Of a stretch of 64,000 nucleotides of DNA, positions 2,632-42,026 are shown in pieces. The translations under genes were made by a program, and so were the position numbers. Source of the stretch: Meiothermus sp. (GTDB lineage Bacteria > Deinococcota > Deinococci > Deinococcales > Thermaceae); assembly GCF_026004075.1 (NCBI RefSeq), contig NZ_BPIK01000002.1, forward strand, positions 620,001-684,000. The letters are read 5' to 3'. The notes beneath the pieces were generated by a model. That model was not told where the DNA came from, ran no database searches, and saw only the letters and a list, made by a program, of their open reading frames with translations. How positions within the stretch are numbered: position 1 is the first letter of the stretch; the number at the start of each line of letters is the position of its first letter.

Positions 2632-2649
2632 GTATCCCCAGGGGGTATC
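2632..2649 (-). promoter_or_regulatory. Candidate CstR operator in front of cstR copy 1
   Basis: The plus strand reads GTATCCCCAGGGGGTATC, a near-perfect palindrome that fits the ATAYCCCC-GGGGTAT element repeated in this window. It ends 3 bases before the cstR start codon, overlapping any plausible -10 region. This implies a very short leader and autorepression. The CstR assignment is inference from the regulator's family and proximity. Confidence 0.65.
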
Positions 2650-2695
2650 GTACCCCAAGGTGCCCGCTCCTTCCAACAGCGGAGCTCGAGCCGCG

Positions 2696-3508
2696 CTATT
2701 CCAACTGCCGCAAAAGCTCTTCAAGCTGGGCCCGGTTCACCGGCCCCAGGTGGCGGGCCAGCACCTTTCCATCGGCGCCAATCAGCAAAGTGGTGGGCAG
2801 CCCGCTTACCTGGAAGGCCCGCTGCAAGCCGGCGCTGTCCAGGAAAACCCGCGCCGAAAGCCCGGTCTGGGCCAGAAAGCCCTGGATGGCTCCCACGTCT
2901 TCGCCGGCGTTGAGCAGCACGATGGGGTAGCCCTTCTGCTGGTACTCCACCAAAAGGGGCATCTCGGCCCGGCAGGGTGGGCACCAGGTGGCCCAGAAGT
3001 TGAGCAGCATGGGCTTGGGGAGTTCAGCAAAGCGCACTTCCAGAGGGCGGGTTTGGGCGGGCTCGAGGTACTGCAGCACGCGGCTGGCATACTCGGGCGG
3101 CGCCGGGGTCTGGGCGGGCCGGGTCAGGCTAAACTGCACCCCCAGGGGTAACAACGCCAGTGCCAGCGCCGCGCCGCCCGGCACCAAGAGCCGTGGGCTT
3201 TCTTGGCGTAAGAGCCAGACCGCGGCCAGGGCCCCCACCGGAAGCCCCACCCACCAGTTCCAGCCCCCGCTGCGGATGTCCACAACACCCAGGAGGGCAG
3301 CCCCCAGGCTGGGCCAGGTGGAGAGGTGGGCCACCACATAGCCTATCCGGGCGGCCAGGAGCGTCGCCAGCAGCACCCACCAGGCTTTGCTTTCCAGGCC
3401 TTGCCGGGCGGCCAGCCAGGTAAAGGCCAGAACCCCCACCAGCAGGGCCAGGTTGGGCCAGCTCAGGGCCAGAGGGCCCAGCAAAAGGGCGTCCGGGCTG
3501 AGTTTCAT
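2696..3508 (-). CDS. Lgt-like membrane domain fused to a TlpA-type thioredoxin (copy 1)
   Basis: A 270-residue protein. The first ~125 residues form several membrane helices with Lgt-like landmarks (ARIGYV..., then VVDIRSGGW...GLPVGA), resembling a shortened prolipoprotein diacylglyceryl transferase fold. The C-terminal ~120 residues are a TlpA/ResA thioredoxin domain with NFWATWCPPC (active site about 175-179) and the cis-proline region SGLPTTLLIG. It is probably a membrane-tethered extracytoplasmic thiol reductase or sulfane-sulfur acceptor; whether the Lgt-like part is catalytic is unknown. ATG 3508 overlaps by 4 bases the stop of a 44-codon peptide upstream, and cstR copy 1 follows. A paralogue of equal length lies at 40604-41416. 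Confidence 0.8.
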   Translation of the reverse strand: MKLSPDALLLGPLALSWPNLALLVGVLAFTWLAARQGLESKAWWVLLATLLAARIGYVVAHLSTWPSLGAALLGVVDIRSGGWNWWVGLPVGALAAVWLLRQESPRLLVPGGAALALALLPLGVQFSLTRPAQTPAPPEYASRVLQYLEPAQTRPLEVRFAELPKPMLLNFWATWCPPCRAEMPLLVEYQQKGYPIVLLNAGEDVGAIQGFLAQTGLSARVFLDSAGLQRAFQVSGLPTTLLIGADGKVLARHLGPVNRAQLEELLRQLE

Positions 3509-3639
3509 CGGCTATACACCACCCATCCCAGCGCCAGCAGCGCGACCCAGGGGGCTACCCGGCATAATGAAAACCCACGCAAACGGCAGGCCAGCCCGCT
3601 GCGCAGGCGCTCCACCCCAACCTTTATAAAGCGCGTCAT
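3505..3639 (-). CDS. 44-residue membrane peptide, likely remnant of an anchored rhodanese
   Basis: A short frame from ATG 3639 to TGA 3507-3505, overlapping the TlpA-fusion start as ATGA. Its sequence (RLRSGLACRLRGFSLCRVAP, then a hydrophobic stretch ending VVYSR) matches the N-terminal anchor of the rhodanese at 41413-41844 (LRPFLACRVQGFSPCRVTP). In that second locus the anchor continues into a rhodanese domain and also ends with an ATGA overlap onto the paralogous TlpA fusion. An internal deletion that removed the catalytic domain but kept the anchor and the translational coupling explains both. An in-frame ATG at 3651 is possible but lies inside the -10 box. It may be only a coupling leader, or a functional small membrane protein. 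Confidence 0.6.
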   Translation of the reverse strand: MTRFIKVGVERLRSGLACRLRGFSLCRVAPWVALLALGWVVYSR

Positions 3640-3649
3640 ATCCGGGGTC

Positions 3650-3678
3650 ATTATACCCCAGGGGGATATAATCTGCAA
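3650..3678 (-). promoter_or_regulatory. Promoter with CstR-type operator filling the -35/-10 spacer
   Basis: On the minus strand: -35 TTGCAG (3678-3673), a spacer of exactly 17 bases, and -10 TATAAT (3655-3650). The near-palindrome TATACCCCAGGGGGATATA (plus strand, 3652-3670) fills the spacer, so a bound repressor would block RNA polymerase. The start of transcription should fall within a few bases of ATG 3639, giving an almost leaderless mRNA for the 44-residue peptide and the TlpA fusion. Confidence 0.75.
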
Positions 3679-3730
3679 AAGTTAGAGAAATTCCCATGCA
3701 CAACACACAGGAATAGCACATACGTTGGGA

Positions 3731-4663: not shown

Positions 4664-4690
4664 AGTATAGCCAGGCCCCCCCTAGGGGCA
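4664..4690 (-). promoter_or_regulatory. Promoter and possible operator for the DUF2946 gene
   Basis: A minus-strand -10 box TATACT lies at 4669-4664. Upstream of it, 4675-4690 carries a CCCC-TAGGGG core related to the window's repeated operator, but it lacks the flanking ATA/TAT arms. A weak TTTGCC sits at -35 distance. A degenerate CstR or CsoR site is possible, since it lies next to a good copy at 4706-4722. Confidence 0.45.
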
Positions 4691-4776: not shown

Positions 4777-5715
4777 ATGAGCCAACTCTACGACGTGGTG
4801 ATTATCGGGGGCGGCCCCGCCGGGCTGACCGCAGGCATCTACACCGGACGGGCCAACCTCAAAACCCTCATCCTGGAAAAAGGCCTGCCGGGGGGCCAGA
4901 TTGCCCAGACCGAGGAGGTGGAGAACTACCCCGGCTTCCCCGAGCCCATCAGCGGGGCTGAGCTATCCGAACGCATGGTGCAGCAGGCCAAACGCTTTGG
5001 GGCCGAGATTGTGATGGACGAGGCCCAGGCCGTGGAAAAAACCCCGGAGGGTTTCGTGGTGCGGGGCTACGAGCAGGACTACCGCGCCCGCACGGTAATT
5101 CTGGCCACCGGGGCCAACCCCAAGAAACTGGGCGTACCCGGCGAAGAGAAGTTTTATGGCCGGGGTGTGAGCACCTGTGCTACCTGTGACGGCTTCTTTT
5201 ACCGGGGCAAGGAAGTGGTGGTGGTGGGCGGGGGCGACGCCGCGGTGGAGGAAGGTCTGTTCCTCACCAAGTTTGCCTCCAAGGTCACCCTGGTGCACCG
5301 CCGCGACACCCTGCGGGCCAACAAGACCGCCCAGGCCCGGGCTCTGGCCCACCCCAAGATGCAGTTCATCTGGGATACCGTGGTCGAGGAGGTGCTGGGC
5401 GAGGAGACTGTCACCGGGGTGCGCCTCAGAAACCTGAAGACCGGCGAGGTCTACGACTACCCTACCGACGGGGTCTTTGTTTTCATCGGGCATGAGCCCA
5501 ACACCGGCTTTTTGCAGGGGGTGGTGGAACTCCGGCCCGACGGCTACGTGGCGGTGCGGGACGAGATTTTCACTTCGGTTCCGGGGCTGTTTGCGGCGGG
5601 GGATGTGGCCGACCCCATCTACCGCCAGCTTTCCACCAGCGTGGGAGCCGGCACCCGTGCGGCCATGATGGCCGAGCGCTACCTGGCCGAACAGGAACAC
5701 GCCGCCGTGCACTAG
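4777..5715 (+). CDS. trxB: Thioredoxin-disulfide reductase
   Basis: A 312-residue low-molecular-weight thioredoxin reductase. Visible parts: FAD-binding [14 protein letters not shown] at the N-terminus, the redox-active CATC ([10 protein letters not shown]) in the middle, NADPH-binding [12 protein letters not shown] with HRRD behind it, and the C-terminal FAD loop LFAAGDVAD. It transfers electrons from NADPH to thioredoxin in the cytoplasm, and can feed thiol pools used for persulfide removal. Start ATG 4777 follows TAAGGAGA. The gene lies behind a CstR-type operator and is probably cotranscribed with the exporter 10 bases downstream. Confidence 0.95.
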
Positions 5716-5724: not shown

Positions 5725-6792
5725 GTGGAAGCAGCAGTTCCAGCAGCGCCCAGCGTGCGCTACCTGAACCCGGCCTGGTTTGCGGCGGTGATGGGTACGG
5801 GGGTGCTGGCCCTGGCCCTGGCCCAGTTTGGCCTGGTGGGGCTGGCCTTGCCGGTCTACGGGCTGGCCCTCTTGTTCATGGCAGGGTTGCTGGGGCTCTA
5901 CCTGGCCAAGCTCCTGCGCTTTCCCCAGGCCGCCCTGGCCGATTTACAGCATCCCCTGCTGTCCCAGATGCTCCCCACGCTACCTATTGCCCTTCTGGTG
6001 CTGAGCCTGGCGACCCGGGCTCTGCCCCTGGGGCCCTGGGCGCTCCCTCTGGGCCAGGGGCTTTTTCTGCTGGGGACGCCGCTGATTTTCTTGGTGGGCC
6101 TGCTGGTGGTCTACTGGGTAAGCACCCGGCTCAGGCTGCCCATCGAGGCCGCCAGTGGAGCCTGGTTTATCCCACCGGTCTCGGCCCTGCTGGTGCCCAT
6201 GGCTGGAGGGCTCTGGCTTTCCAGTTTTCCCAAAGTCTGGCAAAAGGAGCTTTGGGTGGTGAGCGGCCTGTTCCTGGGGATTGGGCTTTTTCTGTTCTTG
6301 TTCGTGCTGCCGAGCTTTTTGCAGCGGTTGTATGGGTACGGCCGCCTCGAGCCCCACTTCCTGCCCTCGGTCTTCATTGGGCTGGCCCCGGTGGGCCTGC
6401 TGGTGCTGGCCCCCTGGCGCTGGCTCGAGGGCGGGGTGCAGGCCGGGCTCATCCCGGAGAGCTATGGGGCGGTCTGGCCGGTGATCGGGCTGGCGGTCTG
6501 GGGCCTGGGCCTGTGGTGGCTGGCCTACAGCCTGCTGCTGCTGCTGGATACCCTGCTGGTGGAGTGCCGCCGTACGCAGTTTCACTTTGCCCCCGGCTGG
6601 TGGGGGTTTGTCTTCCCCTTGGGGGCTTTTACCCTGGCCACGCTGGCGCTGGCTCGGGCGCTGGACTCGGCCTTCCTGGGCGGGCTGGCCTGGGGGCTGC
6701 TCGGGCTGTTGGGGGTGTTCTGGCTCTGGGTGATGTTCTACTCCTTTAGAGCCTGGGCCAGCCTGGGGGCTTTGCGACCGCCCAAAGGTTAG
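5725..6792 (+). CDS. TDT/SLAC1-family exporter, possibly sulfite efflux
   Basis: A 355-residue protein with about ten hydrophobic segments and the TDT-family N-terminal signature NPAWFAAVMGTGVLA, found in TehA, Mae1 and the yeast sulfite pump Ssu1. The fold is a ten-helix anion channel or transporter. Starts at GTG 5725, ten bases after trxB, so probably cotranscribed and under the same operator. Sulfite export is an inference from the CstR-type control and the nearby Sox genes; dicarboxylate or tellurite substrates cannot be excluded from sequence. Confidence 0.75.
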   Translation: MEAAVPAAPSVRYLNPAWFAAVMGTGVLALALAQFGLVGLALPVYGLALLFMAGLLGLYLAKLLRFPQAALADLQHPLLSQMLPTLPIALLVLSLATRALPLGPWALPLGQGLFLLGTPLIFLVGLLVVYWVSTRLRLPIEAASGAWFIPPVSALLVPMAGGLWLSSFPKVWQKELWVVSGLFLGIGLFLFLFVLPSFLQRLYGYGRLEPHFLPSVFIGLAPVGLLVLAPWRWLEGGVQAGLIPESYGAVWPVIGLAVWGLGLWWLAYSLLLLLDTLLVECRRTQFHFAPGWWGFVFPLGAFTLATLALARALDSAFLGGLAWGLLGLLGVFWLWVMFYSFRAWASLGALRPPKG

Positions 6793-29464: not shown

Positions 29465-29468
29465 AACA

Positions 29469-30032: not shown

Positions 30033-30051
30033 TTCTTGTCCTCCTCAATGG

Positions 30052-31758
30052 TTATCCGGGCAGTACATAGCGCTGATCCAGCACCCGCATACTGGGGCGC
30101 GGGGGGATGTTAACGGTCTTGACCTGCTTGAGGTACTCGGCAATCAGGTCGTAGATGGGGCGGGGGGTGTATTTTTCCACCAGGGTGCCGCTGCGCTGGA
30201 GGCGACCCCCAAAGGATGCCAGGGTGTACTCCCGGTTGGGATCGAGGCGGCGGCCCTGAATCGCCACGTTGCGGATGCGCTGGCCGGTGGGGGCGTTTAC
30301 TGCCAGATCGTAGGTGAGGCCGAAAACCCGGCTCATGTCGCCGCCCTGCTGGTAGAAGGGATCGGGGTTAAAGGTGTTGGCTGCTACATCCTCGAGCACG
30401 GCGTGCAGGCGCTCGCCCTTGAGCTTGAACACATAGACTTCGGGGTAGGTAAAGCCGGTGAAGGCCAGGATTTTATCCATGGTGATGGGCTGGCCCGGCA
30501 GAATGGCCGTGCCCCAGCGGGTGCCAGTACTGAAAGCTACCTCTACCTCGGGGTAGGCCGCCCGAACCGCCCGCCCGGCCAGCTCGTCCAGGGTGGAGTA
30601 GGTGGAGTCGCGCTTGTACAGCAGGGTCTCGGTGGTGCCCAGCACCTGGTCGAGGTAGTCCAGGTGGGGGGCGTAGGCTTCGCGGATGAAGGCCTCGAGC
30701 CCAGGGTCGGGCTTGATCAGGTTGGTGGCTACCGGCAGGGTCTTGGCCCGTATATCGGCAATCCCCCCTTTCTTCATCTGTAGGTCTACCCGCACCACGG
30801 CCTTGCCCGCCGAACCTCCGGCCACCAGCCAGGTATTGCCCACCCGGATGGGCGCCGGGGTGAAGTCGTGGGTATGGCCAGTCAGAATCAGATCCAGGCC
30901 CTTGATGCGCCCGGCCAGGGCCAGATCCAGCGGCACGCCGTTGTGGGAGAGCATCACCACCGCGTCTACGCCCTTGCCCCGCAGCTCGTCCACATACTTC
31001 TGTAGCTCGTTTTCCCGGACGCCAAAGGAGAGCCCCTCGGAGAACTCCTCGGGGTGTGAGACCTTCACATAGGGGAAGGTTGAGCCAATCAGGCCTATGG
31101 TATAGCCGCCGATTTCGTGGATGGCGTAAGGCTCGTAGATGGGGTCGCCAAACAGGTCGTCCACGATGTTGAAGCTGATGATTTTAGCCTTCAGGGCCTG
31201 CACCAGCTCCTCCACGCGCGCACGCCCCAGGGTGTACTCCCAGTGGAAGACCATGTGGTCGAAGCCCACCCGGTTCATCCAATCCACCATGACCTGCCCC
31301 TTGGTCAGAAGCGAGATACCGGAGTTGGTCCAGGTATCCCCGCCGTCCAGTACCAGGGTGCGCTTTTCGCCCGCCAGCGCTTTTTGCTGCTGGATCAGGG
31401 CCCCGATATAGGCCCCACCCCCCATCGGCCCGAACCGCTGGGCCAGGGTTGCAAAGTCCACCGAGGCGAAGGTGTAGGCCTCGAGGCTACCCCGCCGGAT
31501 GCCGTAGTAGCGCAAAAATGCCTCGCCGGTGAGGTAGCCAGGCCTGCCCTCCAGGGCTTTGGCCGCCAGCAGGTTGGGCGGCTCCATGAAATAGTGGGGC
31601 CGCAGCTGGCCGTGCAGGTCGGTGTTAAAGAGGAGGGTAACGTTGCCAAAAGGAGGCAGATCGTATAGGGCCTCGGGGCGTTCCATGGCCTGGGCGAAGG
31701 CTTTGGGAGAGGTAATACCCAAGGCCAGCATGAGTTGTATCAGTTCACGTCGGGTCAA
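30052..31758 (-). CDS. soxB: SoxB thiosulfohydrolase
   Basis: 568 residues of the metallophosphoesterase/5'-nucleotidase family. Tat-like signal (TRRELIQLMLALGIT), Mn-binding residues in NTDLHGQLRPHYF, LDGGDTW, VMLSHNG and LTGHTHDF. SoxB releases sulfate from SoxY-cysteine-S-sulfonate. The start is a TTG at 31758 directly after AAAGGAGG; no better start exists upstream. Flanked on both sides by soxXA pairs. Confidence 0.93.
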   Translation of the reverse strand: MTRRELIQLMLALGITSPKAFAQAMERPEALYDLPPFGNVTLLFNTDLHGQLRPHYFMEPPNLLAAKALEGRPGYLTGEAFLRYYGIRRGSLEAYTFASVDFATLAQRFGPMGGGAYIGALIQQQKALAGEKRTLVLDGGDTWTNSGISLLTKGQVMVDWMNRVGFDHMVFHWEYTLGRARVEELVQALKAKIISFNIVDDLFGDPIYEPYAIHEIGGYTIGLIGSTFPYVKVSHPEEFSEGLSFGVRENELQKYVDELRGKGVDAVVMLSHNGVPLDLALAGRIKGLDLILTGHTHDFTPAPIRVGNTWLVAGGSAGKAVVRVDLQMKKGGIADIRAKTLPVATNLIKPDPGLEAFIREAYAPHLDYLDQVLGTTETLLYKRDSTYSTLDELAGRAVRAAYPEVEVAFSTGTRWGTAILPGQPITMDKILAFTGFTYPEVYVFKLKGERLHAVLEDVAANTFNPDPFYQQGGDMSRVFGLTYDLAVNAPTGQRIRNVAIQGRRLDPNREYTLASFGGRLQRSGTLVEKYTPRPIYDLIAEYLKQVKTVNIPPRPSMRVLDQRYVLPG

Positions 31759-31816
31759 AAAACCTCCTTTCCCCAGGCCTAGGCCCGCCGGGGAACGCGT
31801 TGAAGTTTGAGAAACG

Positions 31817-32392
31817 TTAGCGCTTCAGCGCCGGTTTGGTGTTGAAGTCCGAAGCCGGGTCGAGCAGGTAGGCCACCACATGGGCGATCTCCTCCGGCTT
31901 GAGCAGTCCGTTATGCCCAAAGCGGTACATCACCGTGCAGGGGAAGTAGGCCCAGGTGTTGTAAATCACCTCGTAGGTGTACTTCTGTACTGCCTCAGAA
32001 GTGCCGCGCTGGCCATACTTCTCCAGGCTGGGCCCTACATTGCCCCCAATGTTGCGGGGAGAGCCCACGTGGCAGGAGAAGCAGTTGCCGCGGGCCAGGG
32101 TGTTGAAGATGGCATCGCCCTGCTTCCAGTCCCCCATCAGTTTGCCGTCGGCAGGGTATTTGATGGTCTGGCGCTGAGCCTCGATGAAGGGGCCCAACAC
32201 ATCAGCGGGTAGCCTGTTGCGGTGGATGGAGCACAGAGCCTGGTCGGGGGCCTGTCTGAGCAGGATGTTGGAGTAGTTCTGCCCCCCTGCCTGAATCAAC
32301 CGCTGGAGCTCGGCGTCAATGTAAGACGGGCCGGTCTGCCCGAGCGCCAGACCCAGGAGCACCAGGAGCGTAAGCAAATAGATGCGCTGCAC
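31817..32392 (-). CDS. soxX: SoxX cytochrome, copy 2
   Basis: 191 residues with a signal peptide and CFSCH haem motif (GNCFSCHVGSPRNIGG). It shares with copy 1 KYPADGKLMGDWKQGDAIF, EKYGQRGTSEAVQKYTYEVIYNTWAYFPCTVMYRFGHNGLL, so the two are clear paralogues. Starts with GTG 32392 behind AGGAGGG. It pairs with the SoxA copy 2 just upstream. Confidence 0.9.
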   Translation of the reverse strand: MQRIYLLTLLVLLGLALGQTGPSYIDAELQRLIQAGGQNYSNILLRQAPDQALCSIHRNRLPADVLGPFIEAQRQTIKYPADGKLMGDWKQGDAIFNTLARGNCFSCHVGSPRNIGGNVGPSLEKYGQRGTSEAVQKYTYEVIYNTWAYFPCTVMYRFGHNGLLKPEEIAHVVAYLLDPASDFNTKPALKR

Positions 32393-32401
32393 AAGACCCT
32401 C

Positions 32402-33193
32402 CTAGCGTATGAAACCGGGCAAGTCCATCCGGGCCCCGTTGGCCTGCACGTTCATGAATAGGGTCAGGGCGATGATGGGCTCGGAGTAGAAGTCGGGTGC
32501 GGGCATGCTGAGGTTGCTGTAGCAAGCCCGGATGCGGTCGGCCATGGTCCAGGCCTGGTCATTGGAGTAGCGGAAGGCAGGCCAGTGGCTGGCGGCACGT
32601 TTGTCCTTGAGGATGTCGGAGTAGGGGAGCACCCCCGCCCGCCTGCCTACGTAGGTCACGTGGCAGGTTGCACAGCCCATATCGCGCGGGCCGGCCCGCA
32701 GATAAAAGAGCCGCTCGCCCAGCTCATAGAGCTTTTTCTCCTGGGGCATCAGGGGACGTACCGTTACCGGCTGCTCGTTGGAGAGCGAGGCCAGGTAAAA
32801 CGCGATCGCTACCACATCGCTGCGCTTGATCTCCTCCGGTTTGAAGCCCTGCAAGCGAATCATGCAGGTGCGGATGCGCGAGTCGAGGTCTTCGACGCGC
32901 CGGGTATCGAAGAAGTAACGGGGCAGCCGCCCCACCACCCCCTCGAGCTTCCCCGGCCCCCGGCCAAAGTCGCAGGCCTCGAGGCTCGCTTGCTTGGGCC
33001 CGCGCTTGGCTTTGAATAACTGCTCGCCCTGCTCCACATACAGGTCGCTGGGAAGAATCCCTCCGCTCTGCTCCAGAAGCTGCTTCTTCTGCTTCTCGGC
33101 CTCCTTGGCCGGATCATCTTCTTCCTGGGCCAGCACCATCAGGCTAAAAAGGGCTAGAGCAACCGCCCCTACCAAACGCCAGAAGCGACCCAT
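32402..33193 (-). CDS. soxA: SoxA cytochrome, copy 2
   Basis: 263 residues. Signal peptide, charged linker, CDFGRGPGKLEG, TCMIRLQGF, haem site CATCHVTYVG and the ligand region IRACYSNLSMPAPDFYSEP all parallel copy 1. It probably forms a second SoxAX enzyme with SoxX copy 2; mixed pairs are possible. Lies 9 bases after soxZ, in the same run soxW-soxY-soxZ. Confidence 0.9.
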   Translation of the reverse strand: MGRFWRLVGAVALALFSLMVLAQEEDDPAKEAEKQKKQLLEQSGGILPSDLYVEQGEQLFKAKRGPKQASLEACDFGRGPGKLEGVVGRLPRYFFDTRRVEDLDSRIRTCMIRLQGFKPEEIKRSDVVAIAFYLASLSNEQPVTVRPLMPQEKKLYELGERLFYLRAGPRDMGCATCHVTYVGRRAGVLPYSDILKDKRAASHWPAFRYSNDQAWTMADRIRACYSNLSMPAPDFYSEPIIALTLFMNVQANGARMDLPGFIR

Positions 33194-33202
33194 CCGAACC
33201 TC

Positions 33203-33529
33203 CTAGGCCAGGGTGAGATCTGCGGTTTTTTCGCCAGTCTGGCCGTTCAGGTCTTTGCAGGTGACCTTGAGCTGACCGGCTTTGTTGGCCTTCATCTTGA
33301 AGGCGAACAAGGGGTTGGCGCTGGTGCCAGGGCCCGGCTTGACCTGGGCGATGAGCTGCCCGTCCATGGTCACGTTGACCTCGTTGATGTGGTCGGCAGG
33401 AATTAACTTCCCGCTGGCGTCCCGGCGGGTACCGGGCTCCATGGGGTGTTGTACGACAATCTGCACCCGAACTTCATCGCCCGCTTTGGGTTTGGCTGGG
33501 TTGAAACGAACCAAGATGTTAATCGCCAT
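33203..33529 (-). CDS. soxZ: SoxZ carrier subunit
   Basis: 108 residues with the SoxZ pattern IRVRFNPAKPKAGDEV-like start (NILVRFNPAKPKAGDEVRVQIVVQHPMEPG), HINEVNVTMDGQLI and PLFAFKMKANKAGQLKVTCKDLNG. It forms the SoxYZ heterodimer that carries sulfur intermediates. Starts at ATG 33529 with AAGGAGG; the upstream GTG/ATG extension is unsupported. Confidence 0.93.
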   Translation of the reverse strand: MAINILVRFNPAKPKAGDEVRVQIVVQHPMEPGTRRDASGKLIPADHINEVNVTMDGQLIAQVKPGPGTSANPLFAFKMKANKAGQLKVTCKDLNGQTGEKTADLTLA

Positions 33530-33540
33530 GTCATGCCTCC

Positions 33541-34002
33541 TTAACCGCAACCGCCTACCGTGACCCGCACCGACTGCGCGGCCATCAACAACTTGCCGTC
33601 TTTGGTCTCGACCACGGCCCGCACCGGGGCGGTTTCGGCGACCCGCACGCGGGTGGCGTAGTAGGGTAGAACCCCGTTGAGAATGACCGTAAAGAGCAGG
33701 GGATTGGCGTTCTTGTCACAGAAGCAGTGAATGGCCTTGACCTGATCGGCGGGCAGGCTGGCCTCGATCTCCACCGGTACGTTGGCGCCCGACTCGGCGA
33801 TGGTAGGGGCCACCAGCTTGACCTGCTGCGAGAGGGTCAAGTCTTTGAAGCTCTTGCCCAGAACCTGTTGCAAGCCCTTCTCGAGGTTGGCGATGTCCTC
33901 GCCCTCGAGGCCTCCCTGGGCCAGTGCCGCCGTGAGCTGATTGGCCAGCACGGTTCCGGCAACGGCCCCTGCCGATGCTTTTAGAAATGTTCTTCTATCC
34001 AC
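33541..34002 (-). CDS. soxY: SoxY sulfur-carrier subunit
   Basis: 153 residues. Tat-like N-terminus VDRRTFLKASAGAVAG, a SoxY fold, and the swinging-arm C-terminus VGGCG whose Cys holds the sulfur substrate. The start GTG 34002 was chosen because GGGAGGTG lies in front of it and it begins the Tat signal. Overlaps soxW by 8 bases. Exported, folded, as SoxYZ. Confidence 0.93.
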   Translation of the reverse strand: MDRRTFLKASAGAVAGTVLANQLTAALAQGGLEGEDIANLEKGLQQVLGKSFKDLTLSQQVKLVAPTIAESGANVPVEIEASLPADQVKAIHCFCDKNANPLLFTVILNGVLPYYATRVRVAETAPVRAVVETKDGKLLMAAQSVRVTVGGCG

Positions 34003-34429
34003 AACCTTCACCTCCCACCTTCGCACAGATTTGCTGAAGTTCGTTCAGAAACTGTGCACGGGTTCGGCTACCGAATAGCCGGCCCGCTTCTTTCAACGTA
34101 CCCCCTTGGGGTACGAAGAAGACAAAACTGGGTGTGCCAAACGCCCGCATTTGCGTGCTCAGGGCGCGACCTTCGGGGCTATGGCTGTCCACGCTGGCGA
34201 CCACAAAGCGGCGCTCGAGGATGCTCGAGACCCTCGGGTCGGACAGCACATGGGTGTTCATCTGGTCGCAGTAAGGACAGGCTTCACTCCAGAAATAGAC
34301 CATCAAAATGCGTCCATGCGCCTGGGCATACTGGCTGGCCTGGGCATAGGGATACCAGCGCTCGAAGTCTACCCCCTGGGCGTTGACGCCCACCAGGGCC
34401 CCGAGCATTAGTAATAAGATGTACCGCAT
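33995..34429 (-). CDS. soxW: SoxW-type periplasmic thioredoxin
   Basis: 144 residues with a signal peptide (ILLLMLGALVGVNAQ) and a thioredoxin-fold domain with active site SEACPYCDQM; FGTPSFVFF supplies the cis-Pro. An extra Cys pair at the C-terminus (QQICAKVGGEGCG). SoxW keeps SoxYZ reduced, receiving electrons via CcdA. It is the first gene of the main sox operon and sits 28 bases downstream of an operator-bearing promoter. Confidence 0.85.
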   Translation of the reverse strand: MRYILLLMLGALVGVNAQGVDFERWYPYAQASQYAQAHGRILMVYFWSEACPYCDQMNTHVLSDPRVSSILERRFVVASVDSHSPEGRALSTQMRAFGTPSFVFFVPQGGTLKEAGRLFGSRTRAQFLNELQQICAKVGGEGCG

Positions 34430-34776: not shown

Positions 34777-34793
34777 ATACCCGATATAGGTAT
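34777..34793 (+). promoter_or_regulatory. Degenerate CstR-type operator upstream of a TlpA-like gene
   Basis: ATACCCGATATAGGTAT is 17 bp long with perfect ATACC/GGTAT arms, the same size and arm sequence as the other operators, but the G/C core is weaker. It lies 19 bases before the gene start at 34812. Confidence 0.45.
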
Positions 34794-34811: not shown

Positions 34812-35291
34812 ATGAAACGTTTGCTTGCAACCCTCATTTTGTTTACGGTAGGCCTGGCCGTCTCGCCCGGACAGGTTGCCCCGGACTTCCGGCTGCGCAA
34901 TATATCCGGCAAGGTCTACACCCTGGCCAGTTTTAAGGGCAAGCCGGTGGTAATTACTTTCTGGGCCAGTTGGTGCCCCATCTGCCGGGCTGAGTTTCCC
35001 AAGTTGCACCAGCTTGCACAGGAGTACCAGGTGCCTTTTGTGGTCATTAGCCGTGAGCCCCGCGACACCGAACAGGTGGTGCGGGATTACATGAAAAACT
35101 ACCCCCGATTTCTGCCCCTCCTGGCCCAGCCTGGTGGCGATAACCCGGTTGCTGTAGCCAATCGCTATAAGGTGTTGGGCCAGCCCTGGACTTTTGTGCT
35201 CGATGGCGAGGGTAAGGTAGTAAACCTTTATGCTGGCAAGGTGGAGGTCGAGTCCCTCAAGGACGACCTCGCCCTGGCGGGCTATGAGTGA
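34812..35291 (+). CDS. TlpA/ResA-like secreted thiol-disulfide protein
   Basis: 159 residues: signal peptide MKRLLATLILFTVGLAVSPG, then APDFRLRNISGKVYTLASFKGKPVVITFWASWCPICRAEFPK with redox site WCPIC, and LGQPWTFVLDGEGKVV near the end. It reduces or transfers disulfides outside the cytoplasm. GGGAGGAAAC precedes the ATG. It is divergent from the sox operon across a ~380-base region and is probably part of the same sulfur module. Confidence 0.88.
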   Translation: MKRLLATLILFTVGLAVSPGQVAPDFRLRNISGKVYTLASFKGKPVVITFWASWCPICRAEFPKLHQLAQEYQVPFVVISREPRDTEQVVRDYMKNYPRFLPLLAQPGGDNPVAVANRYKVLGQPWTFVLDGEGKVVNLYAGKVEVESLKDDLALAGYE

Positions 35292-36066: not shown

Positions 36067-36831
36067 TTACCCATGTAACACCTTGGGCAGGTTCTGCCAC
36101 AGGATGAAAACCCCCATCACCACTAAAAACCCGGCAAAGCCGCGCCGCAGGGTGAGCTGGGGGATCGAGGCCGCCAGGCGGCCCCCAAACAGGCTGCCCA
36201 CAATGCCCAGCGCCGCGAAGATCAGCACGATATCCCAGTGGACGGTGTAGCCCTGCTCGGGTAGCAGGTGCAGGTACTTATAGAACCCACTGCCCGATTT
36301 CATGGCTACAATCAGCAGGCTGGTGCCCACGGCCAGGTACATGGGCAGCCCGCCCAGCAAGACCAGGGCCGGGACAATTAAAAACCCTCCACCCACCCCC
36401 ACCAGGCCGGTGAGGATGCCCACTACCAGGCCATCCAGGACGATTTTTAGGTAAGAGCGTTTTTGTGTGGGGGCCTCGAGCCGCGGGGGGCGGAACATCA
36501 TGTAGGCGGCCAGCAGCATTACCACTGCAAACAGCCCCAGTTGCCAGACCCCCGGCACCCATTTGGAAAAGTAGGCCCCCAGGTAGGTGCCGGCCATGCC
36601 CGGCAGGCCAAAAAACAGCACGTTGCGCCAGTCTATCTGGGCCTTGAGGGCGTAGGGTATGGCCCCCACCAGGGCAATCAGGCCCACGATGGCCAGCGAC
36701 TCGGCAATGGCCAGTTTGTCGGGCTCTCCCACCAGGTAGACCAGGATGGGTACCGTGAGGATGGAGCCACCCGAGCCCAGCATGCCCAGGGCCAGGCCAA
36801 TCAGAATTGCACCTATCCAGGCTAAGAACAT
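36067..36831 (-). CDS. TauE/SafE-family sulfite/sulfoacetate-type exporter
   Basis: 254 residues, eight hydrophobic helices, with the TauE hallmark GSGGSILTVPILVYL near the N-terminus and a second internal repeat GVGGGFLIVPALVLL. The family exports sulfite, sulfoacetate and other sulfur anions. ATG 36831 overlaps the 3' end of the rhodanese at 36822-37172, so it is in the same transcript as a train of rhodaneses; thiosulfate or sulfite transport is a reasonable inference. Confidence 0.85.
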   Translation of the reverse strand: MFLAWIGAILIGLALGMLGSGGSILTVPILVYLVGEPDKLAIAESLAIVGLIALVGAIPYALKAQIDWRNVLFFGLPGMAGTYLGAYFSKWVPGVWQLGLFAVVMLLAAYMMFRPPRLEAPTQKRSYLKIVLDGLVVGILTGLVGVGGGFLIVPALVLLGGLPMYLAVGTSLLIVAMKSGSGFYKYLHLLPEQGYTVHWDIVLIFAALGIVGSLFGGRLAASIPQLTLRRGFAGFLVVMGVFILWQNLPKVLHG

Positions 36832-37172
36832 GGGGCCTCCTCGGGTTTGAACGGTGCTTCGGCCACCTGGGTTGCGGTGCGCTCGAGCGGGTAACCCTGG
36901 GCCGCGTAGCCCTGGATACCTCCCACCAGCTTCCCCACCTCGAGGCCCTCGTACCCCAGCACCTCGGCGGCCAGTCCGGCCCGGCTGCCCGTAGCACAGA
37001 TGGTCACGACGGGGCTTTTCAGGGTATCCAGCGCCTCCAAAAGCTGCTCCAGGGGAAGGTTGCGCGAACCCGGAATATGCCCGCTGGCGAACTCTTCCGG
37101 CGAACGCACGTCCAGGAGCACAGCCCCGCGCTTTTGCCAGAGGGAAAGCTCGTTGGGGAAGACGTCCTGCAT
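36822..37172 (-). CDS. Single-domain rhodanese, variant active loop
   Basis: 116 residues: VLLDVRSPEEFASGHIPGSRNLPL, then ICATGSRAGLAAEVL with catalytic Cys in the loop CATGSR, and LVGGIQGYAAQGYP. It starts at ATG 37172, one base overlapping the preceding rhodanese. Cytoplasmic. It probably passes sulfane sulfur between carriers; the different active-site loops along this array suggest different partners. Confidence 0.85.
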   Translation of the reverse strand: MQDVFPNELSLWQKRGAVLLDVRSPEEFASGHIPGSRNLPLEQLLEALDTLKSPVVTICATGSRAGLAAEVLGYEGLEVGKLVGGIQGYAAQGYPLERTATQVAEAPFKPEEAPCS

Positions 37173-37513
37173 CACTTCACCGGGAGTTTGTGCCGCTTCC
37201 AGGCTTCTATGCCGCCTACCAGGTTGTAAGCTTTGTAGCCCTTGGCGGCCAGAAAACGCGCGGCCAGGGCGCTGCGTGCGCCGCTTCGGCACTGGCAGAT
37301 GATTTCTTTGTCCCTGGGCAGCTTCTCCCATTCGCTGGCCAGCCGATCGAGCGGCAGGGCCTGCGAGCCGGGGATTTTGCCCTCCTGGCGCTCCAGTGGG
37401 GTACGGACATCCAGAATAATGGCGCCGGCCCTGGCTTTTTCGTGGGCCTCAACTGGGCTGAGGCGGCCCACTGCCGCCCCGCCACCCAATAGGTTTTTAA
37501 GCCAGCCGATCAA
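37172..37513 (-). CDS. Single-domain rhodanese
   Basis: 113 residues with a short hydrophobic N-terminus (MIGWLKNLLGGGAAVG), IILDVRTPLERQEGKIPGS, active loop CQCRSGARSAL and YNLVGGIEAWKRH. The CRSGARS loop is typical of thiosulfate sulfurtransferases. Coupled to its neighbours by overlapping start and stop codons on both sides. Confidence 0.87.
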   Translation of the reverse strand: MIGWLKNLLGGGAAVGRLSPVEAHEKARAGAIILDVRTPLERQEGKIPGSQALPLDRLASEWEKLPRDKEIICQCRSGARSALAARFLAAKGYKAYNLVGGIEAWKRHKLPVK

Positions 37514-38172
37514 CGCTCCACCTCAAAGCCTGCGCTCATCCAGCCGTAGGTGCCGCCCTCGAGGTTGCCCACGTTTTCCTTGGCAAAGCCGTGCCCCACC
37601 AGGTACTCCGAGGCCTGCGACGAACGGCCCCCGGAGGCGCAGACCACCACCAGCTTGCGGTCTTTGGGTAGTTTGCCCACCTCGCTCACGAAGCGCCCCA
37701 GCGGGATATTGACCGCGCCGGGTACGTGGCCCATGGCGTACTCGTAGGGTTCGCGCACGTCCACGACGTAGGCCCCTGCGTCCACCCAGGCCTTGGCCTC
37801 GTGCGGGGTGAGCTCGGTGAAGGCGGTCTCGCGGTAGGTCACCTCCACCGGGACGGTGTCCAAGGGCAGCCCGGCGCGGTACCACGCCAGGATGCCCCCG
37901 TCGAGGTTGAGCACCCGGGCGTAGCCCTTGGCCGCCAGCCAGGCCGCCGCCTGCGCCGAGCGGCCCCCGCTGCGGCAGTAGAGCACCACCGGCTCGTCCT
38001 CAGGCAGCTCGGCGGCCCGCCCGGCGAACTCGGACAGCGGCACCAGCTTGGCGCCGGGGATGCGGGAGTTGGCGAACTCCTCGGCCTCGCGCACGTCCAC
38101 GAAGAGGACCTTCTCCTCGAGCAGCTCCTGCGCTTGTTGGGGGGTGATGTCCTTGTAGGGCACGGTCAACAT
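37510..38172 (-). CDS. Tandem rhodanese with two active domains
   Basis: 220 residues made of two rhodanese domains. The first has VLFVDVREAEEFANSRIPGAK with YCRSGGRSAQAAAWL; the second has YVVDVREPYEYAMGHVPGAVN with VCASGGRSSQASEYL. Both keep the catalytic Cys, unlike classic two-domain rhodaneses where the first is dead. Coding sequence from here leftward in gene order is noticeably richer in GC than the rhodanese downstream. Confidence 0.88.
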   Translation of the reverse strand: MLTVPYKDITPQQAQELLEEKVLFVDVREAEEFANSRIPGAKLVPLSEFAGRAAELPEDEPVVLYCRSGGRSAQAAAWLAAKGYARVLNLDGGILAWYRAGLPLDTVPVEVTYRETAFTELTPHEAKAWVDAGAYVVDVREPYEYAMGHVPGAVNIPLGRFVSEVGKLPKDRKLVVVCASGGRSSQASEYLVGHGFAKENVGNLEGGTYGWMSAGFEVER

Positions 38173-38188
38173 GGTTCTCCTCCGTCGT

Positions 38189-38503
38189 TTAGATCGGGTT
38201 GGCGCAGGGGATCCCCGTCTCGCGCCAGGCCTTGATGCCGCCCTCGAGGTGCCAGACCTTGCGGTAGCCCAGCGCCAGGAGGGTCTTCAGGGCTTCTTGG
38301 GAGCGGTTGCCGCTGCGGCAGTACAGCAGCACCGGCTCTTCGCGCTCGAGGCGGAGCGGGGCCAAGGCCCCGAGGGTGCCGAGGGGGAGCCGCAGGGCGC
38401 CCGGCAGCACCCCCTCCGCCCACTCCTCCGGCTCGCGCACGTCCACCACCCGGTAGCGCTCGAGGGTGCGGTAAGCCGTCTTGGGGTCGAGGTTTCGGGT
38501 CAT
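38189..38503 (-). CDS. Single-domain rhodanese
   Basis: 104 residues: VVDVREPEEWAEGVLPGALRLPL, active loop YCRSGNRSQEALKTL and WHLEGGIKAWRETGIP. Close to the minimal length of the domain. Sits 16 bases upstream of the two-domain rhodanese and 58 bases downstream of the persulfide dioxygenase fusion in the same direction. Confidence 0.88.
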   Translation of the reverse strand: MTRNLDPKTAYRTLERYRVVDVREPEEWAEGVLPGALRLPLGTLGALAPLRLEREEPVLLYCRSGNRSQEALKTLLALGYRKVWHLEGGIKAWRETGIPCANPI

Positions 38504-38561
38504 GGTGCGTCCCTTCAGGAGACCCCCGGGCCCGCGGGCTCGGGGTCAGGCAAATCTTCCC

Positions 38562-40004
<1,443 letters not shown>

Positions 40005-40029
40005 CAGCAAACCTCCTAAGCGCAAGGCT

Positions 40030-40071
40030 ATATCCCCGGGGGGTATATGTCAAGTACCCCTAGGGGGTATT
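40030..40071 (-). promoter_or_regulatory. Twin CstR-type operators at the persulfide dioxygenase promoter
   Basis: ATATCCCCGGGGGGTATAT (40030-40048) and GTACCCCTAGGGGGTATT (40054-40071) lie side by side, with centres about 24 bases apart. On the minus strand TTGACA (40053-40048) lies between them as -35, so the first operator fills the spacer toward a TAGCCT/TATAGC -10 region; the -10 is imperfect. Two sites could allow cooperative repression. Confidence 0.72.
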
Positions 40072-40222
40072 GGATGGCCTCGAGGTCGTGCGGCACGGTA
40101 CGGCCTCCCACCAGGGCTCGAGCCCCCCGCCCTCGCGTAACCCTGACCCCGGCCCACGCGTGGGCCGGGGCGGAAAGCCCGGCTCATCCAGGTCCTCCAC
40201 CCCGGCCGCGCGTGGCGCCCGC

Positions 40223-40525
40223 TCAGCGGCGCAGCAGGCGCACGGCCTCCACGATGCCCCGCGTGTCCCCCTGGCCCTTGGCTAAGTCGGCCTGGCACTC
40301 CTCGAGGTAGGTCTCGAAGATGATGTCGCCGGTGGCCTCGAGGGCGCTGCGCACGCCGGAGAGCAGGGTGAGGATCTCGCGGCAGTCGCGGCCCTCCTCG
40401 ACCATCTTCTGCAGGCCGCGCACCTGGCCCTCCAGGCGCTTGAGGCGGTTGAGCACCTGCTCCTTGGTCGGGGGAGCGGGCCGGGGCTTGCGCTGGGTTC
40501 GGGTTCGGTTCGCAACGGCACTCAA
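40223..40525 (-). CDS. cstR: CstR-like persulfide-sensing repressor, copy 2
   Basis: 100 residues with an extra basic N-terminus (TRTQRKPRPAPPTK) before the DUF156 core. The two cysteines, C48 and C77, are 29 apart and the copper histidine is again Tyr, so it should sense persulfide like copy 1; the two share nearly the whole core. It begins with a TTG at 40525 (GAGGTG upstream). It lies behind the second TlpA fusion, with an operator (40545-40562) before it, and just upstream of the dioxygenase-rhodanese genes. Confidence 0.83.
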   Translation of the reverse strand: MSAVANRTRTQRKPRPAPPTKEQVLNRLKRLEGQVRGLQKMVEEGRDCREILTLLSGVRSALEATGDIIFETYLEECQADLAKGQGDTRGIVEAVRLLRR

Positions 40526-40544
40526 GGTTCACCTCGCGGGCTGG

Positions 40545-40562
40545 GTATCCCTCAGGGGTATC
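40545..40562 (-). promoter_or_regulatory. CstR-type operator in front of cstR copy 2
   Basis: GTATCCCTCAGGGGTATC, an 18-bp palindrome with one mismatch, between the 3' end of the TlpA fusion (40604) and the cstR start at 40525. Suggests autoregulation like copy 1. Confidence 0.65.
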
Positions 40563-40603
40563 CCCCGCGTATCAGTCTATCCCACGGGCGCGCCGGGGGT
40601 GGT

Positions 40604-41416
40604 CTACCGCAGCCGCTGGAGGAGCTCCTCGAGCTGCGCCCGGTTGACGGGGCCGAGGTGGCGCGCCAGGACCCGCCCGTCCGCCCCGATCAGCAAGGTG
40701 GTAGGCAGGCCGCTGACCCGGAAGCTCTCCCGCAGGTTGGCGCTGTCCAGGAAGACCCGCGCCGACAGGCCGGCCTCGCGCAGGAAGCCCTCGACGGCCC
40801 CCGCACCCTCCCCGGCGTTGAGCAGCACGACGGGGTAGCCCTTCTGCTGGTACTCCGCCAGCAGGGGCATCTCGGTGCGGCAGGGCGGGCACCAGGTGGC
40901 CCAGACGTTGAGCAGCATGGGCTTGGGCAGGTCGCCGAAGCGCGCGGGGGAGGGCTGGGAGCGGCCGGGCTCGAGGTAGGCCAGCGGCCGCGCGTCGAGG
41001 GCCGGGCTCTCGAGGGCCAAGCCGGGGCGCAGCAGCGCCTGCTGGAGCCCGAGCGGGAGCGCGGCCAGGGCGAGCGCGCCGGCGGCGGGGACCAGGAGCC
41101 GGCCGGCCTCCCGGCGCAGCAGGGCCCCGGCCGTCAGCGCGCCCCCGGCCAGCCCCCACGCCCAGCTCCAGCCCCCGCTGCGGACGTCCACGACCCCCAG
41201 CAGGGCCGAGGCGGGGTCGGGCCAGGTCCCCAGGTGCTCCAGCACGTACCCCAGCCGGGCCGCCAGGAGCGCCGCCAGCAGCACCCACCACCCCCGGGCC
41301 TCCAGGCCCCGGCGCGCCGCCAGCGCGGTGAAGGCCAGGGCCCCCAGCAGCAGGGCCAGGTTGGGCCAGCTCAGGGCCAGCGGCCCCAGCAGGAGGGCGT
41401 CGGGGGTCAGGCTCAT
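40604..41416 (-). CDS. Lgt-like membrane domain fused to a TlpA-type thioredoxin (copy 2)
   Basis: 270 residues, the same length as copy 1 (2696-3508) and alignable end to end: PDALLLGPLALSWPNLALL, RSGGWSWAWGLAGGAL, LLNVWATWCPPCRTEM, LPTTLLIGADGRVLARHLGPVNRAQLEELL. The N-terminal part is more Ala/Leu rich. Membrane-bound, thioredoxin domain probably outside. Its ATG overlaps the stop of the upstream rhodanese (ATGA), so expression is coupled to it; cstR copy 2 follows downstream. Confidence 0.82.
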   Translation of the reverse strand: MSLTPDALLLGPLALSWPNLALLLGALAFTALAARRGLEARGWWVLLAALLAARLGYVLEHLGTWPDPASALLGVVDVRSGGWSWAWGLAGGALTAGALLRREAGRLLVPAAGALALAALPLGLQQALLRPGLALESPALDARPLAYLEPGRSQPSPARFGDLPKPMLLNVWATWCPPCRTEMPLLAEYQQKGYPVVLLNAGEGAGAVEGFLREAGLSARVFLDSANLRESFRVSGLPTTLLIGADGRVLARHLGPVNRAQLEELLQRLR

Positions 41417-41844
41417 CGCTCCAGAGGATAGCCCGCCGACTGCCAGGCCAGTATGCCGCCCTGCACGTTGCGCACGTCCTTGAAGCCGAGCTCGGCCAGC
41501 GTCCGGCTGGCCTGTACCGAGCGGTTGCCGCTGCGGCAGATCACGTACACCGGGGCGTCCTTGGGGAGCTGCCCGGCCCGGGCGGCCACCTGCCCCAGGG
41601 GCAGCAGGGTGGACCCCGGCACGTGCCCCTCGGCGTACTCGTAGGGCTCGCGCACGTCCAGCACGACGCGGCCGGGCTCGCTGGCGGCCCGAAGCTCCTG
41701 CACGCTCACGTCCTTGTAGCCCGGCTTGGGGGCGCAGCCGTTGAACAACATGAGGACCGCCAGGACCGCCAGGAGCCAGGGCGTCACCCGGCACGGCGAG
41801 AAGCCCTGCACCCGGCAGGCCAGGAAGGGGCGCAGGCGGCCCAT
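41413..41844 (-). CDS. Membrane-anchored or lipoprotein rhodanese
   Basis: 143 residues: N-terminal anchor LRPFLACRVQGFSPCRVTPWLLAVLAVLMLFNGCAP, with a lipobox-like FNGC, then a rhodanese domain VVLDVREPYEYAEGHVPGS, active loop ICRSGNRSVQASRTL and NVQGGILAWQ. The anchor resembles the 44-residue peptide of the first locus. Its stop overlaps the TlpA-fusion start; its start overlaps the stop of a 39-residue ORF. Sulfane-sulfur transfer at the outer face is the likely role. Confidence 0.83.
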   Translation of the reverse strand: MGRLRPFLACRVQGFSPCRVTPWLLAVLAVLMLFNGCAPKPGYKDVSVQELRAASEPGRVVLDVREPYEYAEGHVPGSTLLPLGQVAARAGQLPKDAPVYVICRSGNRSVQASRTLAELGFKDVRNVQGGILAWQSAGYPLER

Positions 41845-41963
41845 CAGCGCACGCCTCCGATGGTCTCGAGAACGGCCTCCACGAAGGCCCGCCCGGGCCG
41901 GCCGTCCAGCGCCTGCTGCACCTGTTCGCGGATTTCGTCGGGGAGCATCTTCTCCATGTCCAT
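41844..41963 (-). CDS. 39-residue small protein at the head of the rhodanese-TlpA operon
   Basis: MDMEKMLPDEIREQVQQALD... with ATG 41963 after GAGGAAAAGCC and a stop overlapping the next ATG. Acidic, amphipathic, no Cys and no known motif. Position just behind the operator promoter suggests it is translated first in the transcript. It could be a leader or a small regulatory protein; not recognised. Confidence 0.5.
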   Translation of the reverse strand: MDMEKMLPDEIREQVQQALDGRPGRAFVEAVLETIGGVR

Positions 41964-41997
41964 GGCTTTTCCTCTGGGCTCCGTAGAGCCTCGCTCC

Positions 41998-42026
41998 ACT
42001 ATACCCCGGGGGGATATATCTGTAAA
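41998..42026 (-). promoter_or_regulatory. Promoter with CstR-type operator in its 17-bp spacer
   Basis: On the minus strand: -35 TTTACA (42026-42021), 17-base spacer, -10 TATAGT (42003-41998). The palindrome ATACCCCGGGGGGATATAT (plus strand, 42001-42019) fills the spacer, as in the promoter at 3650-3678. It drives the 39-residue protein, the rhodanese and the second TlpA fusion. Confidence 0.75.

Follow-up and report, generated by a model that had tools for sequence, protein, structure and literature searches.

Introduction

CstR, as described in the accessible portions of the sources, represses transcription by occupying its operator and is released when persulfides cross-link two of its cysteines (PMC5480029, PMC9774590). 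A second sulfur-related member of the CsoR family, TTHA1953 of Thermus thermophilus HB8, represses sox and has the 20-bp consensus TACNNTACNNNNGTANNGTA, according to the parts of the report at hand (PMC10318464). The type-2 CsoR operator, represented by ATATACCCCTNAGGGGTATAT of the copper-sensing CsoR of Streptomyces lividans, has the common core TAC-X9-GTA in the available text (PMC3902906). The present study deals with a 64,000-nucleotide stretch of a Meiothermus sp. genome (hereafter the window), in which a 17-bp palindrome recurs before genes for sulfur and thiol handling. An earlier note on this DNA had read these elements as one CstR regulon linking sulfide detoxification with Sox. The palindromes of the form RTAYCCCYNRGGGRTAY are very probably operators of a clade of CstR-like repressors (cstR1, cstR2, and cstR3), and a CstR-like regulon for reactive-sulfur defence, conserved through the genus, is a well-supported prediction. 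The sox side appears to carry elements of a different kind.

Materials and Methods

The window corresponds to C2:620001-684000 of a genome of 3.25 Mb in two contigs (G000), whose CstR1 protein is 98% identical to its M. taiwanensis counterpart. The comparison set comprised 17 further Meiothermus genomes (group g1), four genomes in g2 and g3, 27 genomes of g4, labelled Thermus because their TTHA1953-like proteins cluster with named Thermus records, and one genome of g5; g2, g3, and g5 represent further genera within the family of Meiothermus. Two matrices were used for the palindrome (class 1). The first was trained on the window's own seven sites and is circular for window scores, and the pattern was therefore carried to other genomes; the second was trained on other genomes only, with some orthologous training sites identical in sequence to window sites. 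In the strict survey, all 68 exact sites listed in G001-G020 were fetched with their flanks, with the proteins of the window and of its own genome as references, the seven exact sites of G021 lying outside these 68. Since loci fetched in this way had been picked for having sites, a second test was begun from genes, using the best locus per genome, drawn from the best 30 loci per gene, and a threshold of 20 bits. Counts of upstream sites in fetched loci refer to at least 15 bits within about 220 bp of the gene start. Sites, targets, conservation, and sensor residues are reported as observed, and the overlap of sites with promoter elements (-35 and -10) as judged by eye.

A Conserved Palindrome Precedes Genes of Reactive-Sulfur Defence

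Alignment revealed that seven sites of the window (Table 1) share a 17-bp palindrome with the half-site RTAYCCCY and one free central base. The exact form RTAYCCCYNRGGGRTAY was matched by five of the seven, those at 3653 and 42001 each being one base off. The seven sites scored 23-27 bits with the self-trained matrix and 21.6-26.9 bits with the one from other genomes. No site of at least 23 bits occurred in 200 Markov-simulated windows, as against seven in the real one, a comparison that is circular as it used the self-trained matrix. The pattern proposed in the earlier note, allowing up to three mismatches, gave 54 matches in the window against 19.9 expected and 35 in the highest shuffle. That note had listed ten elements: the seven strong ones held with slightly shifted coordinates, while the one at 34460 proved half-degenerate, the one at 34777 belonged to another class, and the supposedly weaker one at 4675-4690 was rejected as an operator, the 17-mer there scoring -22.7. 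By eye, the element fills the promoter spacer at PDO (persulfide dioxygenase; TTGACA), at the first TlpA fusion (TTGCAG-17-TATAAT), and at soxW (TTGACG-17-TATTAA).

Another palindrome, GTACCCCCTTGGGGTAC, overlooked earlier, lies inside the soxW coding region at 34098-34114, with a similar one in G013. In spite of that resemblance it was rejected as an operator because it lies within codons, and it is probably codon-driven.

The genome of the window held seven matches to RTAYCCCYNRGGGRTAY and none to the reversed control; the 17 other Meiothermus genomes held 1-7 each and the four g2/g3 genomes 1-5, with no control match in these 21 genomes except a single one in one genome. In Thermus, a single match was found in 4 of 27 genomes, in each case read as lying inside open reading frames (ORFs) or beside transposase-like genes, and the g5 genome had none. 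Five members of the repressor clade described below come from Trueperaceae and a related metagenome-assembled genome (MAG); similar sites lie 89-151 bp before the matched gene in three of them, and a weaker one at -90 in a fourth. As to whether such elements are equally frequent away from promoters, a refuting condition set in the earlier note, nine of the ten exact genome matches to the looser pattern RTAYCCYNNNRGGRTAY lie upstream of genes, the tenth being in soxW coding sequence.

Outside the window, strong sites in the same genome precede a second PDO gene (C1:8022 and 8047, in tandem), a thioredoxin-rhodanese-cstR3 operon (C2:433263), a gene for a 39-amino-acid membrane protein (C2:535618), and a SoxC-like operon (C1:1371). 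The 39-amino-acid protein (G000 C2:535618-535786; L018 2619-2787) is predicted to be single-pass, has no Pfam or NCBIfam match, and carries its palindrome 41 bp upstream; gene and palindrome recur in G005, G007, G018 and, by sequence, G013. The operon at G000 C1:1371-1601 (L008) encodes a second SoxC-like molybdenum enzyme and a cytochrome c, with the upstream palindromes ATACCGCCGGGGGGTAT and ATACCCGATATCGGTAT. A 268-amino-acid transposase-like ORF lies near the sulfur genes at the C1 end (L008 51-857) and near the cstR3 operon (L017 2674-3480), the two copies being identical in the first 60 residues, the part compared.

The strict survey revealed that, for 65 of the 68 sites in the other genomes, a target gene starts no more than 200 bp away. 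The targets were PDO (23 sites), a thioredoxin-led operon with a rhodanese and a cstR gene (17), trxB (13), cstR1 or cstR2 (9), the TlpA fusion or its rhodanese (4), and another rhodanese (1), two sites serving two divergent genes. Two more sites lie at contig ends, by eye before trxB and before the TlpA leader. The distances from site to start were nearly fixed: 33-35, 45, or 58-59 bp for PDO, 56-64 or 88 bp for trxB, 27-57 bp for the thioredoxin operon, 12-28 bp for cstR1 and cstR2, and 123-183 bp for TlpA. Detoxification targets of the palindrome were conserved in 20 other genomes. In the test begun from genes, outside Thermus and g5, a site of at least 20 bits preceded trxB in 16 of 19 loci and PDO in 22 of 22 genomes (that of G019 taken from the strict survey); in Thermus the figures were 1 of 10 and 0 of 8, and for trxB in g5 0 of 1. 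Among fetched loci, 10 of 27 cstR genes, 14 of 24 TlpA or rhodanese genes, and 2 of 3 heavy-metal ATPase genes had a site upstream, the last within a shared divergent region. This target set, PDO with rhodaneses, TauE, and thiol-reducing proteins around it, fits the role of a CstR.

The Probable Repressors Form a Clade Without the Copper Ligand

The genome encodes seven CsoR-family proteins, among them CstR1 and CstR2, whose genes lie in the window, and CstR3, whose gene is at C2:431883. The CsoR/RcnR fold was found at 81.8 bits for PF02583 (cut-off 22.8) and at E 1e-12 with PDB 7mq1/7mq2, while NCBIfam matches to RicR, FrmR, and RcnR stayed far below cut-off. In the accessible part of its source, a figure legend labels 7mq2 as CstR (PMC9774590). 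A tree of 104 family members over 99 columns, built by a quick method with many forks open, with group labels preset by short sequence motifs and no full known CstR included, united CstR1-CstR3 in one clade, AB (42 rows; Shimodaira-Hasegawa-like approximate likelihood ratio test (SH-aLRT) 97), which also takes in relatives from g2, g3, Trueperaceae, and the related MAG. This clade stands apart from group C, the TTHA1953 orthologues of Thermus and Meiothermus, whose member in this genome lies outside the window at C2:344715. Group D, consisting of cysteine-less genes, stands beside C, and group E holds genes like those adjoining copA/copZ. At the positions equivalent to C31 and C60 and the middle ligand position, 39 of the 42 members of clade AB have Cys-Tyr-Cys and the other 3 Cys-Phe-Cys; group C has Cys-Phe-Cys in 26 of 26 and group E Cys-His-His in 16 of 16, while 12 of 13 group D members have neither cysteine. 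The solved CstR fragment has Cys-Asn-Cys and the solved CsoR Cys-His-Cys. A very divergent CsoR-like group without the usual sensor pattern (L302, L303, L304; four genes in the tree) occurs in G003, G012, and G019.

The earlier note had taken the palindrome as a mark of CstR. It is the known, general type-2 CsoR operator, as far as the available text of PMC3902906 goes, and therefore does not by itself name the regulator. A copper or metal regulon, in which CsoR-type metal sensors occupy the sites and the thiol proteins serve copper handling, would share this operator type, and a PCu(A)C chaperone and a heavy-metal ATPase are encoded nearby; a Microbacterium CsoR with Cys-His-Cys has the same palindrome at -78. 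The residues speak otherwise, with the Cys-His-Cys or Cys-His-His pattern of copper CsoR absent from clade AB and the copper-ligand His found in 0 of 42 members. The copper-type CsoR genes lie elsewhere in the genome beside copA/copZ, and one of the two group E genes has CCCCACCCCCCGGGGGGTGGGG before copZ, close to the TtCsoR site CCCCACCCCACCTGGGGTGGGG given in the part of the report at hand (PMC10318464). Group E residues, the copA/copZ context, and CCCCACCCCCCGGGGGGTGGGG together argue against copper for clade AB. The copper handling named in the earlier note did not hold up: no PCuAC gene had an upstream site (0 of 9 in fetched loci) and the ATPase at 42111 best fits the Zn/Cd/Hg/Pb type. 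A copper regulon is therefore very unlikely.

The fingerprint Cys-(Tyr/Phe)-Cys without His, the separate clade, the sites before the repressor genes themselves, the detoxification targets conserved in 20 other genomes, and the location of copper-type CsoR genes elsewhere together point to the CstR-like regulon that the earlier note had put forward.

Several observations weigh against this reading. Sequence alone cannot tell which of the seven CsoR-family proteins binds, and group C also lacks the copper His, so that the fingerprint cannot by itself separate AB from C. TTHA1953, the only characterised sulfur regulator of the family found in the order, gave no response to NaHS in the accessible portion of its report (PMC10318464). 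One of the 68 strict sites (L200) lies inside a coding region, and the gene-led test found no trxB site in G003, G006, and G012. In the fetched loci, 17 of 27 cstR genes and 10 of 24 TlpA or rhodanese genes lack a site of their own, many of them inside operons. SQR and TauE-type genes are part of the classical cst regulon, and in the same loci a site directly upstream was found for 0 of 11 SQR and 0 of 2 TauE genes. Sites were likewise absent upstream of SLAC1 (0 of 12), rhod8b (0 of 16), and rhod17 (0 of 14); several of the siteless genes are inner operon genes and hence weak controls. Finally, own-genome sites of 13-16 bits at five fetched places (L009, L010, L013, L016, and L020) have no tie to sulfur genes, and scores in this range, that of the soxW site included, therefore mean little without conservation.

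Sox-Side Promoters Carry Related Elements of Another Class

Conservation was found for the soxW element at 34460, which scored 16.6 bits with the class-1 matrix from other genomes, 15.1 bits with the self-trained one, and 13.9 bits with a Thermus matrix, built from the TAC-N9-GTA sites of the Thermus and g5 loci described below. It is kept in 13 of 17 Meiothermus genomes with soxW, that of the window included, with an altered form in G001, G002, and G004. At the TlpA promoter, ATACC-N7-GGTAT is kept in 10 of 11 aligned genomes. Compared with class 1, the Thermus matrix raised the score of 34777 by 12 bits, lowered that of 34460 by 2.7, and lowered those of the seven core sites by about 5-12, which makes 34777 kin to the Thermus type and places 34460 between the classes.

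In Thermus and g5 loci, TAC-N9-GTA lies upstream of trxB in all 11 examined (from g5 and from 10 of the 26 Thermus genomes that have a match), of PDO in 8 of 8 examined (of 26), and of soxW in 10 of 10 examined (of 24), as compared with 1.5-2.4% of random window stretches of the same length. The trxB and PDO palindromes of Thermus and g5 stand at similar positions (L331-L336, L339-L343, L366-L373). The published TACNNTACNNNNGTANNGTA may be seen as a pair of TAC-N9-GTA modules that overlap with an offset of five bases. It was rejected as accounting for the sites of the window, where it had four matches, each with three mismatches, against 4.2 expected, and the soxW site holds one TAC-N9-GTA module only. 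These promoters suggest that TTHA1953 or another CsoR-like protein controls trxB and PDO in Thermus.

A single regulon as the earlier note had it, with the sox operon and TlpA under direct repression by the CstR proteins along with the detoxification genes, is possible but doubtful. The soxW element lies between -35 and -10, is conserved as stated, and has one half (nearly) identical to the class-1 half-site. G004 combines soxW and a CCCC-type site with CstR-clade and copper-type genes only, group C being undetected at E 0.001, which favours the CstR clade in that genome; and with TAC-N9-GTA at all three Thermus promoters, control of all of them by a single regulator may be the ancestral state. 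The other half of the soxW element departs from class 1, however, reading [TC]AGTA[TC] in 11 of 11 aligned genomes, and the TlpA element reaches only 5.1 bits with class 1 against 17.3 bits with the Thermus matrix. In G006, G008, G011, and G015 the best soxW site stays below 5 bits in class 1 despite the presence of the CstR clade, with TAC-N9-GTA retained in G008 and G015. The proposed link with Sox thus stood in part: the soxW element is conserved and the operators are related, while the elements on the sox side are of a different class and look more like the Thermus ones. The link between Sox and detoxification probably runs through related paralogues with related operators, and a single regulator may serve both sides in Thermus itself.

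Conversely, the group C orthologue of TTHA1953, and not the CstR clade, could bind all of the sites. No other sulfur regulator of the family with experimental proof was found in the order besides TTHA1953, to judge from the part of the report available (PMC10318464), and modules of the kind that make up its consensus stand in the Thermus and g5 promoters of trxB, PDO, and soxW. Group C is present in Thermus, yet the exact palindrome is absent from these promoters there; TAT replaces TAC on one side in 13 of 18 distinct class-1 sites; cstR1, cstR2, and the cstR3 operon themselves carry sites; and exact sites are present in G003 and G004, both of which lack a group C gene. In addition, the accessible text reports no appreciable binding of TTHA1953 to the TtCsoR site or to a candidate containing a C-tract of four bases (PMC10318464). 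Binding of all sites by group C is accordingly an unlikely account.

A genus-wide scan for ATACC-N7-GGTAT, tried as proof of a second regulon, was rejected because the excess over the control was modest, with five matches against three for the control in the own genome and 0-6 against 0-2 in the 17 others. Among 13 fetched stretches, the sites before SQR and a microprotein gene recur, the TlpA site recurs elsewhere, and most sites have no assigned gene. In six other Meiothermus genomes (L245-L250), a gene for a 402-amino-acid SQR-like flavoprotein has the palindrome ATACCCCC[CT]A[TC]AGGTAT 37-38 bp upstream, the distance in L249 being counted from an inner Met and the ORF in L248 being broken off.

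The CsoR-family paralogue at 22281-22577, apparently the last gene of the sox cluster, lies 12 bp after ccdA, with Leu and Trp in place of the sensor cysteines; similar cysteine-less genes with Phe and Trp occur in 10 other Meiothermus genomes. A link between this gene and the soxW site was considered but is not claimed, since relatedness among the genomes confounds it: in G006 a related gene occurs without the site, and in G019 and G020 the site occurs with no gene detected.

Other Features of the Window

The features are collected in Table 1. The sox cluster contains ccdA, soxD, soxC, a flavocytochrome c flavoprotein gene, a rhodanese gene, two soxA/soxX-type pairs, soxB, soxZ, soxY, and soxW, the last on the minus strand like PDO, cstR2, and the second TlpA fusion. 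The pairs amount to two soxA-type and two cytochrome c (soxX-type) genes, and the soxA copies share an 80.5% identical stretch (29081-29275 and 32813-33007). The PDO protein aligned over nearly its full length with PDB 3tp9 (E 8e-133) and 3r2u (E 2e-103), the latter of which we take to be staphylococcal CstB. Sulfite would be the substrate of the SLAC1-type exporter.

The second cluster, at 36904-42384, which carries PDO, cstR2, and the second TlpA fusion with their own operators, is 95-97% identical in DNA to G003, a member of another genus, and 94-96% identical to G007. The G+C content is 69-74% at 38-44 kb and 64.6% in the window as a whole, although 68-70% is reached in some other 2-kb bins as well. 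This cassette was probably transferred horizontally. Between copies 1 and 2, DNA identity is 85% for cstR and 76% for TlpA.

Table 1. Genes and predicted operators of the window, with the basis of each assignment.
Feature	Position	Strand	Basis or remark
cstR1, CstR-like repressor (CsoR/RcnR family, PF02583), Cys-Tyr-Cys	2353-2628	-	Profile match, sensor residues
Class-1 operator before cstR1 (autoregulation)	2632-2648		25.3 bits, matrix from other genomes
TlpA-type thiol:disulfide protein, copy 1, N-terminal LGT-like membrane part (weak match)	2696-3508	-	Domain search
Class-1 operator before short leader ORF (about 3505-3639, by eye) and TlpA copy 1	3653-3669		Fills TTGCAG-17-TATAAT spacer
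Class-1 operator before trxB-SLAC1	4706-4722		Gene-led trxB test
trxB, thioredoxin reductase	4777-5715	+	TIGR01292 above cut-off
SLAC1/TDT-type exporter	5725-6792	+	Domain search
CsoR-family paralogue without either sensor cysteine	22281-22577	-	Overlooked by the earlier note
sox cluster	22590-34429	-	Several names from Pfam domain and gene order
soxW operator variant, minus strand ATACCCCCAGGTAGTAT, between TTGACG and TATTAA	34460-34476		Conservation
Class-2 operator (ATACC-N7-GGTAT) before TlpA	34777-34793		5.1 bits class 1, 17.3 bits Thermus matrix
TlpA/ResA-like thioredoxin, divergent from soxW	34812-35291	+	Domain search
TauE/SafE exporter and rhodanese genes, PDO island	36067-38172	-	Domain search
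PDO, two rhodanese domains, CstB-like layout	38562-40004	-	Lactamase_B, Rhodanese
Class-1 operator, PDO-proximal tandem member, beside TTGACA	40030-40046		Matrix; PDO loci of 22 genomes
Class-1 operator, PDO-distal tandem member	40054-40070		24 bp centre to centre; tandem also in G004, G007
cstR2, second CstR-like repressor, Cys-Tyr-Cys	40223-40525	-	Family search, sensor residues
Class-1 operator before cstR2	40545-40561		Matrix; same in G003, G004, G007
TlpA fusion copy 2 (40604-41416) and rhodanese lipoprotein-like gene (41413-41844)	40604-41844	-	Domain search
Class-1 operator between rhodanese-TlpA copy 2 operon and divergent heavy-metal ATPase	42001-42017		Matrix
Heavy-metal ATPase	42111-44366	+	Best score with Zn/Cd/Hg/Pb type model

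Discussion

By analogy with CstR, we infer binding, repression, and persulfide sensing for the repressors of clade AB. With the sensor cysteines reduced, a tetramer or a pair of tetramers would sit on the 17-bp site, and the occupied site, overlapping the -35/-10 spacer or the -10 element, would block transcription. Persulfides or polysulfides would then join the two cysteines across subunits and the repressor would leave the DNA, releasing expression of PDO-rhodanese, thioredoxin-rhodanese, the TlpA-type reductant carriers, trxB with the SLAC1 exporter, and the repressors themselves. At the sox and TlpA promoters, the TTHA1953 orthologue would probably be the main controller, perhaps together with the cysteine-less paralogue, and cross-binding at soxW may occur.

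As a tentative scenario, an ancestral TTHA1953-like regulon covering both Sox and detoxification, of which the TAC-N9-GTA elements of Thermus would be the trace, may have split in Meiothermus: a duplicated CstR clade would have taken over detoxification with the TATCCCC half-site, while sox would have kept the old operator and gained a thiol-blind partner or brake paralogue. If so, the cysteine-less paralogue could not answer sulfur through sensor cysteines, and the locus would be a natural example of a regulon shared out among paralogous repressors, of which one has lost its sensor residues. The prediction gives a concrete regulon for reactive-sulfur defence in a whole thermophile genus that also carries sox, with defence-side and energy-side operators told apart by their sequence. 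It also implies a possible control of trxB and PDO, besides sox, by TTHA1953 in Thermus, which a search with the published 20-bp form might overlook. The operator type and the kind of regulator were already known; the extent of the regulon, its split from the Sox operators, and the cysteine-less paralogue were not found in the searchable literature. No paper describing this regulon turned up in our search, which was limited and does not imply its absence from print.

Compared with known systems, the closest match in operator is the type-2 ATATACCCCTNAGGGGTATAT of Streptomyces lividans, with practically the same palindrome and spacing, although the repressor there senses copper according to the available text (PMC3902906). 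TTHA1953 of T. thermophilus HB8 shares with the present repressors the family, the order, the sulfur targets, and the soxW promoter; it differs in belonging to clade C, its motif TACNNTACNNNNGTANNGTA occurs at chance level in the window, and PDO and trxB are not among the targets reported in the accessible part of the study (PMC10318464). The cst operon of Staphylococcus aureus and its CstR share the CsoR family, the two sensor cysteines, and PDO and rhodanese-type targets, as far as the consulted portions go (PMC5480029, PMC9774590), and YrkD, a CstR-like protein of Bacillus licheniformis, is in addition a repressor of its own promoter in the part of the report available (PMC9918477). Both species belong to a different phylum from Meiothermus, for which the persulfide effector is proposed by analogy. 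While the CstR of S. aureus is thought, in the portions of the literature consulted, to have one directly controlled operon, Meiothermus has several paralogous repressors and a predicted regulon of scattered operons that include trxB-SLAC1 and the TlpA fusions.

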